A stretch of DNA of 64,000 nt from Conchiformibius steedae (GTDB lineage: Bacteria; Pseudomonadota; Gammaproteobacteria; Burkholderiales; Neisseriaceae): assembly GCF_014054725.1 (NCBI RefSeq), contig NZ_CP059563.1:1205749-1269748 (forward strand), given 5' to 3'. Both the position numbers and the translations under genes were made by a program. Of the stretch, positions 35,939-45,603 are shown in pieces (positions within the stretch are counted from its first letter, which is position 1; every line of letters starts with the position of its first letter). The notes under the pieces are model-generated. The model searched no databases and was not told where the DNA came from. It was given only the letters and a program-made list of their open reading frames with translations.

Positions 35939-36757
35939 TTAAAAACGGCGTTTTAATTTGCATTCCTGCATAATGGCGACTGCCAATTCTTCCACCGATT
36001 TATGCGTGGTATTGGTAAACGGAATGCCGTGGCGGCGGAACATGGCTTGCGCGTCTGCCACTTCATTGCGGCAGGTGTTTAAATTGGCATAACGCGAATC
36101 GGGACGGCGTTCTTGGCGGATGTCGTGCAAACGCTCGGGCTGAATGGTTAAACCAAATAATTTGTGCTTGTGGTTTTTGACCATGCGCGGCAAGTCGGTG
36201 GTGTCCAAATCATCGGGCGTTAAAGGATAATTGGCGGCGCGGATGCCGTATTGCAACGCCAAATACAAGCAGGTAGGTGTTTTGCCGCTGCGCGAAACGC
36301 CCATTAAAATCACATCTGCTTCTTCCAAGTTTTTATCGGACACGCCATCATCGTGGTTAAGCGAAAAATTAACCGCTTCCATACGCGCATCATAGCGTTC
36401 CAAATTATGCACGCGGCTTTGCACCGAATGTCGCGCCCGCACGCCAAATTCTTCTTCCAACACCCCCAAAAACGCATCAAAAAAACTCAAATGCAAACCT
36501 TTGCTGGTTTTCACGATTTCGCGCACTTCGTCATTGACAATGCTGGAAAACACCAAAGGACGCGCTTCGTCTTCTTCAGCGGCGCGGTTGATAATCTGCA
36601 CCAAGCCGTGGGCTTTGTCGGCGGTATCCACATAGGGGTAGGTGGAACGTTTAAATTTCATGTTTTCAAACTGTTCCAACAGGGCATCGCCCATGTTTTC
36701 AGAGGTAATGCCTGTGCGGTCGGAAACAAAAAAGGCACGGCGGCGGGCTTGGGTCAT
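35939..36757 (-). CDS. ppsR: PEP synthase regulatory kinase/phosphorylase
   Basis: DUF299 enzyme that inactivates phosphoenolpyruvate synthase by ADP-dependent phosphorylation and reactivates it with Pi. The 272-residue product starts [20 protein letters not shown]. The P-loop [15 protein letters not shown] and [13 protein letters not shown] are diagnostic, as is RYANLNTC near the end. A start 13 codons upstream is less likely. No ppsA is in the window. It is 51 nt downstream of coaBC. Confidence 0.93.
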
Positions 36758-36808
36758 GGCGGGATTCCTTTGCTTGGATAAACAACAAAACGCCATTATA
36801 ACGCGCTT

Positions 36809-37993
36809 TTACACGCCTTGCGCCTTGCCCCTTAATTGCGCGATGCGCTGTACGATGGCATCAGCGGCGGCATCTTTGCTCATTTCGGGTAGCGCGGTTT
36901 CAGCAAAATCATCTAGTAAAACAATCTTATTGGTGGTTTTTCCCATTGCTTCGAACACTTGGTTCGCCACCAATAAAGGGACGTTTTTCTTGGCGCGTTT
37001 GGCGCGGGCGTAGTCCAACACGTTTTCGCTTTCGGCAGCAAAACCCACGCAAAACGGCGCGTTTGGCATCGTGGCAACCGATTGTAAAATATCGGGGTTT
37101 TCTACCAATTCCAATACGGGCGCGTTGCCCGTTTTTTTCATTTTCTGCGCCGAAGCATTGGCAACGCGGTAATCCGCCACCGCCGCCACCGCAATAAAAA
37201 TATCGCTGTCGGGCAACTGCGCCTGCACCGCTTCATACATTTCACACGCGCTTAATGCCTGCTGTGTAAACGTTAAACCCGCAGGCAAAGGCACGGACAA
37301 TTTGCCGTACACCAGCTTAACCGCTGCACCCGCCCGCCGACACGCCCGCGCCAATGCCACGCCCATTTGTCCGCTGGAAATATTGGTGATGCCGCGCACG
37401 GGGTCTATCGCTTCATAGCCTGCGCCTGCGGTCAGCAGCACGGTTTGCCCTGCCAAAAGTTGCGGCGACCACACATCGGGCAGCAAATCCGCCAATTCCG
37501 CCGCTTCGGGCATTCTGCCTGCGCCCACTTCGCCGCAAGCCTGTTCGCCGTGGGCGGGCGCAAACACGGTAATGCCGTCTTGCTGCAACTGCTTGATATT
37601 GCGTTGATTGGCGGGGTTATGCCACATTTGCACATTCATGGCAGGGGCAACCGCCAGCGGACAGGTTCGCGCCGCCGCCAGTTCGGTAATCAGATTGTCG
37701 GCAATGCCGCGGGCGATTTTGGCGAGGGTGTTGGCGGTGGCAGGCGCAATCAGCATCACATCGGCGGCGCGGGTGGCGTTGATGTGCGCCATGCCGTTGC
37801 CCGTGCCGCCGTTTTCGGTGAGGACGGGATTGCCGCTTAAGGCCTGAAAGGTTTGTGCGGACACAAATTCGGTGGCGGCGCGAGACATGGCAACGGTAAC
37901 GCTATGCCCTTGTTTTTTCAGCAGGCGCACCAGTTCGCAGGATTTATACGCGGCAATGCCGCCGCAAACGGCTAATAGAATGTGTTTGGACAT
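36809..37993 (-). CDS. coaBC: Phosphopantothenoylcysteine synthetase/decarboxylase
   Basis: Bifunctional CoA synthesis enzyme. Residues 1 to about 185 are the flavin-dependent decarboxylase CoaC (VCGGIAAYKSCELVRLLKKQG, APAMNVQMWHNPANQRN, GEQACGEVGAGRMPE). The rest is CoaB (TAGAGYEAIDPVRGITNISS, GQMGVALARA, VAAVADYR, NPDIL, FAAE). Length 394 is usual. With coaX earlier in the window, several CoA genes are near each other, though not in one operon. Confidence 0.95.
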   Translation of the reverse strand: MSKHILLAVCGGIAAYKSCELVRLLKKQGHSVTVAMSRAATEFVSAQTFQALSGNPVLTENGGTGNGMAHINATRAADVMLIAPATANTLAKIARGIADNLITELAAARTCPLAVAPAMNVQMWHNPANQRNIKQLQQDGITVFAPAHGEQACGEVGAGRMPEAAELADLLPDVWSPQLLAGQTVLLTAGAGYEAIDPVRGITNISSGQMGVALARACRRAGAAVKLVYGKLSVPLPAGLTFTQQALSACEMYEAVQAQLPDSDIFIAVAAVADYRVANASAQKMKKTGNAPVLELVENPDILQSVATMPNAPFCVGFAAESENVLDYARAKRAKKNVPLLVANQVFEAMGKTTNKIVLLDDFAETALPEMSKDAAADAIVQRIAQLRGKAQGV

Positions 37994-38028: not shown

Positions 38029-39792
38029 TTATTGGGCGTATAGGCGTTTTAGGGCGGCTTGGGCGAATTTTTTGGCTTCTTTATTATCATTTTGCTGGGC
38101 GGCTTGACGGTACCAATAGATAGCCTGCTCTCGGTCTTGGTTAATACCTTCTCCATGTTCATACATCACGCCCAAACTAAGCTGTCCCGATGCATACCCC
38201 TGTTCGGCTGCCTTACGAAACCACTCCGCCGCTTGTCGGTTATCTGTACTTACCCTATCCCCATTGTAGTACATCAAAGCCAAATTATATTGTGCATTGA
38301 CATTGCCTTGCTCAGCAGCCATTCTAAGTTCTACTAATGCCTCATCTCCATTCAGAGCAACATCACGCCTTGGTCTGTCAATTTGCTCTTTGCCTAAAGC
38401 TGATGCTTCCGAATAGCGATTTTGCGATGCAGTTACATCAGTTTCTGAACGATGGGGAATTTCCATTATTACCAAAGGCTCCGAGTTGTTTATATCTATA
38501 GCTGATTCACTCTCCGAGTAGTCAGCAACTTCCACTGCTGCCGAAGACGCTACCTTATTTGTATATTCTGTCACAGATGAAGCCTCTCCCCAAGACTCCG
38601 AAGCAGCATCTTGTACTCCTATTGCACTGGCATCCGAAGCATAAACGGCAGAAGCATTATCCATTCCCTCTATATCCGATGCGCTTTCGCTCAAAGCAGG
38701 GGTTTCCGCGATATAGACATCTAGTTTTGCATGTTTATCATAATACGAAGCCAAAAACAGCAGCATCATCAATGTAATAATCACAAAAAAGACTACATTA
38801 AACACATTTTTATCTGCCTTGTTTTGCTCCTCAGCTTTTGTTGTCGGCTTAACCGCAGCCGCTTTTTCAGGCTGCTTGTGCAGTGCGGGCGGCGGCGTGG
38901 CGGTTTCACTGCCATTGTTTGCCGCATTATTAAGGGCTTGGCGCATTTGCGCCACCGTTTGAAAGCGTTGCGGCGGTGCCAAACTAAAGCCCTTGTCCAC
39001 CGCCGCCAGCCATGCCTGCGGATAGCGGACGCGGTAGTCGGGATTATCGGTCAGCGTAGGCAACCTGCGGCCGATGCGGTCAGTCGCAGGCAGCGGCAGC
39101 TTGCCCGTTACCGCTTGATACAGGCAGGCGGAAAGCGCGTATAAATCGCTAGCAGGCGACAGTTTGCCGCTGCCGCCGTATTGTTCAATCGGCGAATAGC
39201 CTTGACTGATAAACAGCAGCGAACTTTGCGTATTTGGCCCAGCCGCAAAACGCCTTGCCGCGCCAAAATCAATCAGTATCGGTGTGTTCTCCGCCAGCAG
39301 AATGTTTTGCGGCTTAATGTCGCGGTGCAGAATGCGCTGATTGTGCAGATATTCTAAAGCATCAAGCAGTGGCAGAAAAATGTTGTTTAATTTTGTGCGG
39401 TTGGGCTGGGGGTGCTGGCGCAGGTAATCAGAAAAAGTGTCGCCGCCAATATAGGGCATCACAAAATAAGCGGTGCTGTTGGCTTCAAACAAGTCGGTTA
39501 CGGGAACGATATTGGGGTGTTTCAGTCGGTGCAGCAGTTGCGCTTCACGGAAAAAATAGCGCATACCGCGTTCAAATAATTCGCGGTGGGCGTGATGGGG
39601 TAAAACTTCGCTGCTCTTGGGCAGGCGTTGTGCCAATTCAGATGGGAAATATTCTTTGATAACAAAGCGGTTGCCCAAACGGATGTGTTCGGTCAGATAA
39701 GTTACACCAAAACCGCCCGAACCGAGTATGCGGACAATGCGGTAGTTTTGGTGAAGTAGCTGTTCGGCAGTAAGCGGGTAGGGGTGGGACAT
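38029..39792 (-). CDS. Membrane Ser/Thr protein kinase with Sel1 repeats
   Basis: A 587-residue Hanks-type kinase. The kinase domain spans about 17-290: Gly loop GSGGFGVTY (24-32), Lys46, catalytic HRDIKPQNILL (156-166) and DFGAA (175-179), so it looks active. One membrane segment lies at about 330-350. A Ser/Ala/Glu-rich linker follows to about 480, then at least two Sel1 repeats (AEQGNVNAQYNLALMYYNGD; ASGQLSLGVMYEHGEGINQD). The kinase should be cytosolic and the repeats periplasmic. I chose an ATG four codons after a TTG. It lies downstream of a PTP-like gene. Substrates are unknown. Confidence 0.88.
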   Translation of the reverse strand: MSHPYPLTAEQLLHQNYRIVRILGSGGFGVTYLTEHIRLGNRFVIKEYFPSELAQRLPKSSEVLPHHAHRELFERGMRYFFREAQLLHRLKHPNIVPVTDLFEANSTAYFVMPYIGGDTFSDYLRQHPQPNRTKLNNIFLPLLDALEYLHNQRILHRDIKPQNILLAENTPILIDFGAARRFAAGPNTQSSLLFISQGYSPIEQYGGSGKLSPASDLYALSACLYQAVTGKLPLPATDRIGRRLPTLTDNPDYRVRYPQAWLAAVDKGFSLAPPQRFQTVAQMRQALNNAANNGSETATPPPALHKQPEKAAAVKPTTKAEEQNKADKNVFNVVFFVIITLMMLLFLASYYDKHAKLDVYIAETPALSESASDIEGMDNASAVYASDASAIGVQDAASESWGEASSVTEYTNKVASSAAVEVADYSESESAIDINNSEPLVIMEIPHRSETDVTASQNRYSEASALGKEQIDRPRRDVALNGDEALVELRMAAEQGNVNAQYNLALMYYNGDRVSTDNRQAAEWFRKAAEQGYASGQLSLGVMYEHGEGINQDREQAIYWYRQAAQQNDNKEAKKFAQAALKRLYAQ

Positions 39793-39848
39793 TGGGGAAA
39801 GCAAGTCAATGCAATTGGGCGAAATATAACATTTCTTTATCGTTGCGG

Positions 39849-40172
39849 CTATGCGGGCAAATGCGGGGCAACAGCACTTTTAAGCAGTTCCACCAATTCG
39901 GCATCCATATAACGGTAATCATCAGGAATATCCAACACAATTAGGGTTTTGTGCTGCAATGCGCGGGCAAATGTGGCGCGTAGGCGCGATTGGTGTTTTT
40001 CTTCCATTACCAAAATTTTGTCTGCCCACGCAATATCCGCCGCGCTAACGGTGCGCCGTGCATTGGGCGATGTCCCTGCAGAACGTACCTGAATAGAGGG
40101 ATGGCGGCGGAAAATGGTTTCGGCAGTGGGGCTACGCCATTGGTTGCGGCTACAAATAAACAGTAAATTCAT
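39849..40172 (-). CDS. Low-molecular-weight tyrosine-phosphatase-like protein (COG4551 type)
   Basis: A 107-residue cytosolic protein starting MNLLFICSRNQWRSPTAE. CSRNQWRS gives the C-x5-R phosphatase loop. DIPDDYRYMD near the C-terminus resembles the general-acid Asp region of the small COG4551 phosphatases. A longer frame adds 25 residues that overlap a DUS hairpin, so I chose the internal ATG. It lies 56 nt upstream of the Ser/Thr kinase, same strand, suggesting a kinase-phosphatase pair. Activity is inferred. Confidence 0.8.
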   Translation of the reverse strand: MNLLFICSRNQWRSPTAETIFRRHPSIQVRSAGTSPNARRTVSAADIAWADKILVMEEKHQSRLRATFARALQHKTLIVLDIPDDYRYMDAELVELLKSAVAPHLPA

Positions 40173-40197
40173 GTTTCTGACGAAAGGTAAATGTGGA

Positions 40198-40232
40198 TTC
40201 AGGCAGTTTTCGCCATGGGAAAACTGCCTGAA
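40198..40232. repeat. Hairpin of two DUS-core sequences
   Basis: TTCAGGCAGTTTTC (40198-40211) and its exact complement (40219-40232) form a 14-bp stem with a 7-nt loop. Each arm contains the DUS core CTGCCTGAA preceded by AAA rather than AGG. It lies between the unknown 74-codon gene and the phosphatase-like gene. There is no U-tract. Confidence 0.7.
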
Positions 40233-40247
40233 AGGGTGTGAAAACAA

Positions 40248-40472
40248 TCAATCAAACCATTCGGAATGGAAGGATTGGGCGCATATGGGATAGATAAAAC
40301 GCAATTGCCTGGCGCGGCGGACTTTTTCGCTGCGGCTGTACATCAAGCCCCAATCTTTTTCCAAACAGCGCGGTTCTGGGATTTTGCGCGGGGTGGCGGA
40401 TTGGTTGTGTTGGGAACGACGTTTTTGCCAACGCCGCCATGCACGGGTGCGATTTTGGGGGATATTATCCAT
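40248..40472 (-). CDS. Small basic conserved hypothetical protein
   Basis: A 74-residue Arg/Trp-rich protein: RTRAWRRWQKRRSQHNQS near the start, then EKDWGLMYSRSEKVRRARQL. It is strongly basic without a membrane segment, which could mean nucleic-acid binding. AAGG lies 13 nt before the ATG. It resembles small hypothetical proteins of Neisseriaceae as far as I recall, but I cannot name a family. It is upstream of the phosphatase/kinase genes, same strand. The high Arg content could also mark a chance frame. Confidence 0.5.
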   Translation of the reverse strand: MDNIPQNRTRAWRRWQKRRSQHNQSATPRKIPEPRCLEKDWGLMYSRSEKVRRARQLRFIYPICAQSFHSEWFD

Positions 40473-44301: not shown

Positions 44302-45603
44302 ATGAAAAATAAGAATATCGCTTTATCGTTTGTTGCTGTGCTGTCTGCGCTGACATTGTCGGTACAGGCAGAAAACAATCCTAATCTTCAACAGGCAGCA
44401 GCTGCCTATGAACGCGGTGATTATGCGGAAACCAAAAGATTGTTGGAAACAGAAGCTTTAAAAAACAATGCCGAAGCGCAAAACAATCTGGGTGTATTGT
44501 ATGCGGGTGGGCATGGTGTGGCGCAAGATTATGGATTAGCGCGACAATGGTATGAAAAAGCAGCGGCAAAGGGATTTGCCGAAGCACAATATAATCTTGG
44601 TGTGATATATGAAAAGGGGCATGGGGTAACACAAAACTATGAATTGGCGCGGCAATGGCATGAAAAAGCTGCTGCACAAGGACATATTAAAGCAGCAAGC
44701 AATTTGGGGGCGTTGTATGCTAACGGGTTGGGTGGGGTGCAAAATGATAAGCTGGCACGGCAATGGTGGGAAAAGGCTGCGGCGGCAGGAAATGTTGAAG
44801 CACAATACAATCTAGGGGTAATGTATGCCAAAGGGCAAGGTGTGGCAGTGAATCATAACTTGGCAAAACAATGGTATGAGAAAGCGGCTGCACAGGGGCA
44901 TATGGGCGCTCAATATAATTTGGGGCTGATGTATGCAGATGGATTGGGTGTAGCGGTAAACGGTGGTTTGGCAAAACAGTGGTATGAAAAAGCTGCGGTG
45001 AGGGGTAGTGCCGATGCCCAATTTGGTTTGGGTTTGCTGTATCGGTATGGAAACGGTGTGAAACAGAATGACCAATTGGCGCAGCAATGGCTAGAAAAAG
45101 CGGCTGTTCAAGGACATTCTGATGCACAAAATATGCTGGGCATATTGTATCAGGAAGGTGGCGATGGTGTAGGGCAAGACCATAAATTGGCGCTACAGTG
45201 GTATGAAAAATCGGCGCTACAAGAAAATGCCGAAGCGCAATTTAATCTTGCTGCTTTGTATCATTTGGGCTTGGGTGTGAAGCAAAATGATGAACTGGCG
45301 CGACAATGGTTGGAAAAATCTGCTGTGCAGGGAAATATCAACGCACAACAGAATTTGGGCGGATTTTATTACTTTGGTGCACAGGGTGTATCTAAAGATT
45401 ATGCCTTGGCATGGAAATGGTGGGAAAAAGCGGCTATGCAAGGGAATGCCCAAGCCCAATTTGACCTTGGTACTTTGTATTACAATGGGCATGGTGTAAA
45501 ACAAAGTAATGAGTTGGCAAGGAAATGGTTGAAAAAGGCAGCCGAACAGGGGCATGAAGATGCCAAACGTGCGCTGCAACAATTAAAAGCTCAAGGTCAT
45601 TAA
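44302..45603 (+). CDS. Secreted Sel1-repeat protein
   Basis: A 433-residue protein with a signal peptide (ALSFVAVLSALTLSVQAENN, cleavage after QA) and ten tandem Sel1 repeats of 36-37 residues plus a partial one. Each has the form AQ-x-NLG-x-x-Y-x-x-G-x-GV followed by LA-x-QW-x-EKAA. Such solenoids mediate protein-protein contacts, often in the periplasm. The gene is more AT-rich than spoT before it. It could be a partner of other envelope proteins. The kinase at 38.0-39.8 kb has the same repeat type, but no direct link can be shown. Confidence 0.9.
   Translation: MKNKNIALSFVAVLSALTLSVQAENNPNLQQAAAAYERGDYAETKRLLETEALKNNAEAQNNLGVLYAGGHGVAQDYGLARQWYEKAAAKGFAEAQYNLGVIYEKGHGVTQNYELARQWHEKAAAQGHIKAASNLGALYANGLGGVQNDKLARQWWEKAAAAGNVEAQYNLGVMYAKGQGVAVNHNLAKQWYEKAAAQGHMGAQYNLGLMYADGLGVAVNGGLAKQWYEKAAVRGSADAQFGLGLLYRYGNGVKQNDQLAQQWLEKAAVQGHSDAQNMLGILYQEGGDGVGQDHKLALQWYEKSALQENAEAQFNLAALYHLGLGVKQNDELARQWLEKSAVQGNINAQQNLGGFYYFGAQGVSKDYALAWKWWEKAAMQGNAQAQFDLGTLYYNGHGVKQSNELARKWLKKAAEQGHEDAKRALQQLKAQGH

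Follow-up and report, generated by a model that had tools for sequence, protein, structure and literature searches.

Gene sets that combine a kinase, a PP2C phosphatase and an FHA protein are known from Pseudomonas aeruginosa, where PpkA, PppA and Fha1 belong to type VI secretion (PMC6213207, excerpts). The diversity of the sensors carried by bacterial kinases has long been described, in a text that mentions neither Sel1 nor MORN (PMC1262709, excerpts). In conflict systems, Sel1 repeats have been noted behind membrane segments (PMC7159879, excerpts). FHA and trypsin domains have also been found within one protein: NP_811686.1 of Bacteroides thetaiotaomicron has the arrangement FHA-FHA-trypsin, with its FHA domains at the N-terminus (PMC2605481, excerpts).

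Here we analyse a kinase gene of Conchiformibius steedae (Neisseriaceae), located in a window of 64,000 nucleotides, by which we mean the whole stretch of DNA that was analysed. On balance, the evidence tips slightly in favour of this kinase being an orphan with an alternative sensor that feeds an envelope system made of a PP2C, a kinase and a trypsin-like/FHA protein. This reading corrects the phosphatase partner of the kinase and points to a lineage-restricted Ser/Thr phosphorylation system; among the literature matches listed, none describes such a system in Neisseriaceae.

A predicted transmembrane kinase with Sel1 repeats

The kinase gene lies on the minus strand at 38029..39792 and encodes 587 residues from its ATG start. 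An alternative TTG start at 39804 gives a 591-residue frame (38029..39804, minus strand), which is used below for the residue numbers of the catalytic motifs and domains. The frame matches Pfam Pkinase with 126 bits (cut-off 31.7) and Pfam Sel1 with 77.7 bits (cut-off 30.7), the kinase domain covering about residues 17-290 and the Sel1 match two stretches within residues 503-571.

The initial annotation had described a kinase with all catalytic motifs, and both the Pkinase match and an alignment of eight sequences bear this out. The catalytic set is complete, with the glycine loop, Lys50, the alpha-C Glu87, HRD160-162, Asn167 and DFG179-181, and these residues are invariant across the alignment with the exception of Arg161 (HLD replaces HRD in a second Sel1 kinase of the same genome). 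By its motifs the product is a Hanks-type Ser/Thr kinase, with activity predicted.

The predicted membrane segment is the one strongly hydrophobic stretch, which begins at residue 330 (ATG frame), in line with the single segment annotated before. It is preceded by Lys-rich sequence and followed by an acidic, Ser/Ala/Glu-rich linker that leads to the Sel1 repeats, which suggests that the Sel1 end lies in the periplasm. Accordingly, of the earlier proposal that Sel1 repeats lie outside the membrane, the repeats themselves stand and their periplasmic side is probable, as a prediction of topology. Kinase domain, putative membrane segment and Sel1 repeats are thereby found in one frame, the architecture of a Sel1-fused transmembrane kinase. 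A structure model of the full-length protein is reliable over most of the kinase domain and poor elsewhere, including the Sel1 part, so that it does not confirm the Sel1 fold.

The sensor had also been described as different from that of PASTA kinases. Indeed, Pfam finds Sel1 and no PASTA, and the NCBIfam PASTA-kinase model NF033483 reaches 146.6 bits against a cut-off of 450.

The Sel1 kinases are paralogues of clustered kinases

Three kinases of this group are encoded in the C. steedae genome (G000): the window kinase, a kinase with MORN repeats (L002) and a second orphan Sel1 kinase with six repeats (L003; G000:C3:1345718-1347718, L118:6719-8719). The latter is flanked by genes for a thioesterase-like protein and a large membrane protein. 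Among the matches listed, the kinase domain is matched in 6 of 83 family genomes (G000, G001, G002, G003, G039 and G065), the other family genomes aligning to the Sel1 end of the query only; a weak kinase match in a seventh genome could lie beyond those listed.

In a tree of 38 kinase domains, the window kinase groups with the second Sel1 kinase (98/84); this pair is sister to the six other family kinases (98/97), and these eight stand apart from the 30 others (100/99). The tree thus places the two as paralogues, sister to family kinases of which several are clustered with PP2C.

Across the class, the kinase domain is matched in 102 of 369 genomes, the C. steedae genome included. Sel1 repeats and a kinase domain share a frame at 6 of the 29 other class-level loci fetched, drawn from the 102 matching genomes, a count that may miss Sel1 repeats since several of these loci (L126, L127 and L135) are cut. 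The Sel1 label requires five changes on the tree, at least three of them being forced by well-supported branches, with gains and losses not told apart. We conclude that the Sel1-kinase fusion is recurrent in the class and is therefore not new.

A lineage-restricted PP2C-kinase-trypsin/FHA module

The more interesting part is the module to which the paralogous kinases belong. The MORN kinase of C. steedae is found in a four-gene cluster at about 1586.5-1592 kb of G000:C3 (L093:2486-8046), in the order membrane PP2C, kinase with MORN repeats outside, trypsin-like protein with a membrane segment and two FHA domains, and small FHA protein. Kinase, PP2C, trypsin/FHA gene and a gene for a similar small protein are in a row in G002, and the first three are clustered in G003. 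In G039, kinase and PP2C lie near a contig end and the trypsin/FHA gene at the end of another contig. On a 3.4-kb contig of G001, PP2C and kinase occur together and the trypsin/FHA gene is absent; G065 keeps all three on three contigs. MORN repeats were assigned by Pfam in the C. steedae kinase only, and from the eight-sequence alignment in G001 and G065.

The six family genomes, out of 83, that hold the kinase group are precisely those in which the trypsin/FHA protein (at E up to 1e-10) and, likewise, the PP2C (at E up to 1e-5) were found. This co-occurrence (6/6 versus 0/77, Fisher p = 2.6e-9 with shared ancestry ignored) comes from a small sample of six genomes with shared ancestry, in 4 of 12 genera. 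In the rest of the class as sampled, 368 further genomes, no trypsin/FHA protein was found (E up to 1e-20, at most three candidates scored per genome). The module is thus restricted to a lineage, and no description of it was found among the literature matches listed, which covered titles, abstract openings and open papers.

The co-occurrence concerns the kinase group and not the window gene itself. The window kinase falls in the same clade, in the same genomes as PP2C and trypsin/FHA genes, and is an orphan, being adjacent to neither. What the data show is an intact sequence, paralogy, co-occurrence and the clustering of the paralogous kinases; a use of the same PP2C and FHA proteins by the orphan Sel1 kinases would be a step beyond this, based on paralogy and co-occurrence and not on adjacency.

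A further clue comes from G001, a genome of the same genus. There, a Sel1 C-terminus that shares 70% identity with the window kinase's end is located 101 nt upstream of a trypsin/FHA gene, in the place that the MORN kinase holds in C. steedae; a contig edge cuts off the rest, and a similar small-protein gene comes after the trypsin/FHA gene. The fragment, which may or may not belong to a kinase, could be an orthologue of the window kinase, and hints that sensor kinases may be interchangeable.

Alternatively, the window kinase may stand alone, with substrates of its own and unconnected to PP2C and trypsin/FHA proteins. Its neighbourhood (small protein, PTP, coaBC and ppsR-like gene) contains no recognised partner and, among the matches listed, it has no clear orthologue in the other 82 family genomes. 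Nonetheless, every genome in which its closest relatives are found has PP2C and trypsin/FHA genes as well, and we regard this independence as unlikely.

Elsewhere in the C. steedae genome, an 80-kb contig carries, in this order, genes for a PP2C, a divergent kinase and a TerC-like protein (G000:C2:54698-58267, L004). This set resembles tellurite-type (TerY-P) sets.

The trypsin-like part may be a pseudoprotease in one branch

The trypsin/FHA protein consists of a trypsin-like domain, a membrane segment and then FHA. The proteins of G002, G003 and G039 carry the His, Asp and Ser motifs. Three proteins have another residue in place of the catalytic His: the larger copies of G000 and of G001 and the G065 protein. 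These come from the three genomes with MORN-like kinases, and in two of them, the larger copy of G000 and the G065 protein, Ser is replaced as well. The loss of His, and partly of Ser, suggests that the trypsin-like part has become a pseudoprotease used for signalling in one branch. The FHA motifs GR, SxxH and NG, the meaning of which is taken from excerpts of PMC1262709, are kept in the 616-residue protein of C. steedae; in the G065 protein, GQ replaces GR in the second FHA domain.

Two of the three genomes with MORN-like kinases have, elsewhere, a copy in which the triad motifs are present. In C. steedae, this second, solitary trypsin-like/TM/FHA protein is encoded at G000:C3:82162-83634 (L111:6118-7656), and in G001 at L112:1991-3514. 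The solitary protein is a possible partner of the orphan Sel1 kinases.

The neighbouring phosphatase goes with a small basic protein

Genes on the minus strand follow in the order 74-residue ORF, PTP, kinase, coaBC and ppsR-like gene. The PTP gene (39849..40172) encodes 107 residues with a C-x5-R-S/T loop and matches Pfam LMWPc with 34.2 bits (cut-off 23.2). Its structure model is confident (pLDDT 94) and matches the structures of Wzb and YwlE. By loop and modelled fold the product is a minimal LMW-PTP, and a predicted phosphatase. It contains the motif IPDDY, of which D84 is invariant and D85 variable in a 15-row alignment; this motif may supply the catalytic Asp near the C-terminus.

As the initial annotation had it, this C-x5-R phosphatase gene is upstream of the kinase on the same strand, with 56 nt from the PTP stop to the kinase ATG, and a small basic protein precedes it. 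The latter (74 residues; 40248..40472, minus strand) is a real ORF: relatives with 45-54% identity are found upstream of the PTP in seven other family genomes, and 25 positions are invariant over the eight sequences.

The 83 family genomes give 19 matches to the PTP, 16 of them good. Not counted as good are those of G042 (partial, two stops), G025 (E about 1e-4) and G021 (9e-4); G061, with one in-frame stop, is counted and was omitted from the alignment, which holds 15 of the 16. The small basic protein lies upstream of the PTP at 8 of these 16 loci (7 of 15 outside the C. steedae genome), and the other neighbours vary by locus (for example, aroA-, fmt-, GMC-oxidoreductase- and transporter-like genes). 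Gene names given to neighbours throughout (aroA, fmt, gmk, spoT, coaBC and ppsR) are presumptive, having been assigned by eye. Outside the family, 12 records match the PTP; five plasmid loci were examined and one of them, from Pantoea, has a weaker relative of the small protein (5e-13) before the PTP (L060:3778-4348). Together, these loci define the small basic protein and the PTP as the recurrent unit.

The pair (window 39849-40472) is found at shifting sites, as if moved together.

In the initial annotation, the PTP was a candidate phosphatase for the kinase, and the two, perhaps with a nearby Sel1 protein, could form one envelope signalling unit. The two genes are close and on the same strand, a promoter-like site is found upstream of the small protein on that strand, and no promoter-like or terminator-like site separates PTP and kinase, which makes co-transcription plausible, even though the scan itself is uninformative (5 promoter-like sites versus 4.0 in shuffles, and 2 terminator-like sites versus 4.0). 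Of the 83 family genomes, however, 16 have a good match to the PTP, 6 have the kinase group and 2 have both. The presence of one shows no association with that of the other (the PTP is in 2 of the 6 kinase genomes; Fisher p = 0.33), the two lie side by side in C. steedae only, and at the 15 other good PTP loci no kinase match is found within flanks of 1.5 kb. By the criterion of conserved gene order in Neisseriaceae, set beforehand, the pairing fails, and with it the idea of a single unit of kinase, phosphatase and Sel1 protein. Moreover, the recurrent neighbour of the PTP is the 74-residue protein, and no phosphatase gene was recognised beside the second Sel1 kinase. LMW-PTPs act on phosphotyrosine or phosphoarginine rather than on phosphoserine or phosphothreonine, a preference ill-suited to a Ser/Thr kinase. 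We therefore consider it improbable that the PTP is the cognate phosphatase; it is probably not a functional partner of the kinase, and its position upstream is best taken as coincidence, co-transcription being possible nonetheless.

C. steedae has a separate Wzb-like gene (147 residues) that adjoins a Wzc-like gene near C3:1184-1187 kb, the latter matching eps_fam with 160.9 bits (cut-off 108.05). Tyrosine phosphorylation in this species is thus probably served by its own Wzb/Wzc-like genes.

Anti-phage and type VI kinases as improbable alternatives

The window kinase also matches the PADLOC models PD-T4-6 (1.3e-45) and mad6 (4.5e-45), which raises the question of a role in phage defence, like that of PD-T4-6 or MAD6. 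However, 36 PADLOC models match, mostly to the kinase domain alone, which points to a general kinase match, and for MAD6 the NCBIfam model NF047741 reaches a score of 129.4 against a cut-off of 460. PADLOC gave no match on the PTP, the only neighbour scanned. An anti-phage role is very improbable. A PpkA-type kinase that regulates type VI secretion has a virtually negligible chance, because VipB (PF05943), the one family used as test for the machinery and found in the E. coli control, is absent from the C. steedae genome, given as 100% complete, even though PpkA (5hnv, 1.3e-38) is the best kinase-domain match among solved structures.

Other neighbours of the kinase

The gene we take to be coaBC (36809..37993, minus strand) is 35 nt downstream of the kinase and is followed by the putative ppsR-like gene (35939..36796, minus strand). 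An operon with coaBC as a conserved unit was rejected, as the neighbours of coaBC differ in the loci of relatives that were read. No kinase, PTP or small-protein match is found within 1.5 kb of coaBC at 29 other coaBC loci, taken from 79 other genomes with a match, some of these loci ending early; in the one genome of the same genus, the contig ends inside coaBC.

The ten-repeat Sel1 protein that had been noted 4.5 kb from the kinase is there: the gene lies at 44302..45603 on the plus strand, the product is probably secreted, and Pfam counts ten Sel1 stretches. With 7 (over cut-off) to 10 other Sel1 frames in the 2.2 Mb of this genome, a Sel1 gene would be found that near the kinase by chance in about 3-5% of cases, which is mildly unexpected. 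A link between the two was not retained, the genes being on opposite strands with six genes between them.

Sel1-repeat frames also occur in rows, apparently expanded, in other genomes (G026:C1:429367-434406, G031:C7:27786-32416 and G034:C162). One C. steedae open frame of 1265 residues (G000:C3:649836-653399) contains many Sel1 repeats in two blocks.

Proposed mechanism

If the window kinase feeds the PP2C-kinase-trypsin/FHA system, its periplasmic Sel1 repeats would be the sensor. A ligand or an envelope protein would bind these repeats and change the state of the kinase, which would then phosphorylate threonines, either its own or those of neighbouring membrane proteins. These phosphothreonines would be bound by the FHA domains of the trypsin/FHA proteins, which would relay the signal or alter the periplasmic part, and the PP2C would reset the phosphorylation. 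The Sel1 kinases would thereby be extra inputs to the kinase/FHA/PP2C system; the PTP would go with its small basic companion and lie beside the kinase by chance. In this scheme we infer topology, activity, ligand and the coupling of phosphothreonine to FHA.

By extension, the system may be an envelope switch that works from the inside outwards and is limited to a few genera of one family. Interchangeable sensor kinases (with MORN, Sel1 or other periplasmic parts) would phosphorylate membrane proteins, FHA domains on the cytoplasmic face of a single-pass protein would bind these, and a periplasmic trypsin-like protease would thereby be controlled through the membrane; in the genomes with MORN-like kinases, a signalling pseudoprotease would take its place. 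We put this forward tentatively and consider it doubtful. If true, the control of a trypsin-like protein across the inner membrane by FHA and phosphothreonine would be an unusual regulation of envelope proteolysis, and the kinases with swapped sensors would show one output given several inputs.

Comparison with known systems

The closest described set is PpkA-PppA-Fha1, which likewise combines a Hanks kinase, a PP2C and an FHA protein (PMC6213207, excerpts). Here, by contrast, there is no VipB gene, FHA is joined to a trypsin-like domain, and the repeats on the kinases are Sel1 or MORN. PASTA kinases (PknB/PrkC/Stk1), which occur with a PP2C, are alike in having a transmembrane kinase and an outside sensor, and a PP2C gene also lies beside the MORN paralogue in C. 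steedae. The Sel1-fused kinases of the class share the one-frame architecture and differ in falling outside the family clade on the tree.

For the phosphatase, the C-x5-R loop and the fold are common to Wzb and YwlE; the 107-residue protein is about 40 residues shorter and is often preceded by the small basic protein. Finally, NP_811686.1 shares both domain types with the trypsin/FHA protein but differs in their order, which here is trypsin-like domain, membrane segment and FHA (PMC2605481, excerpts).
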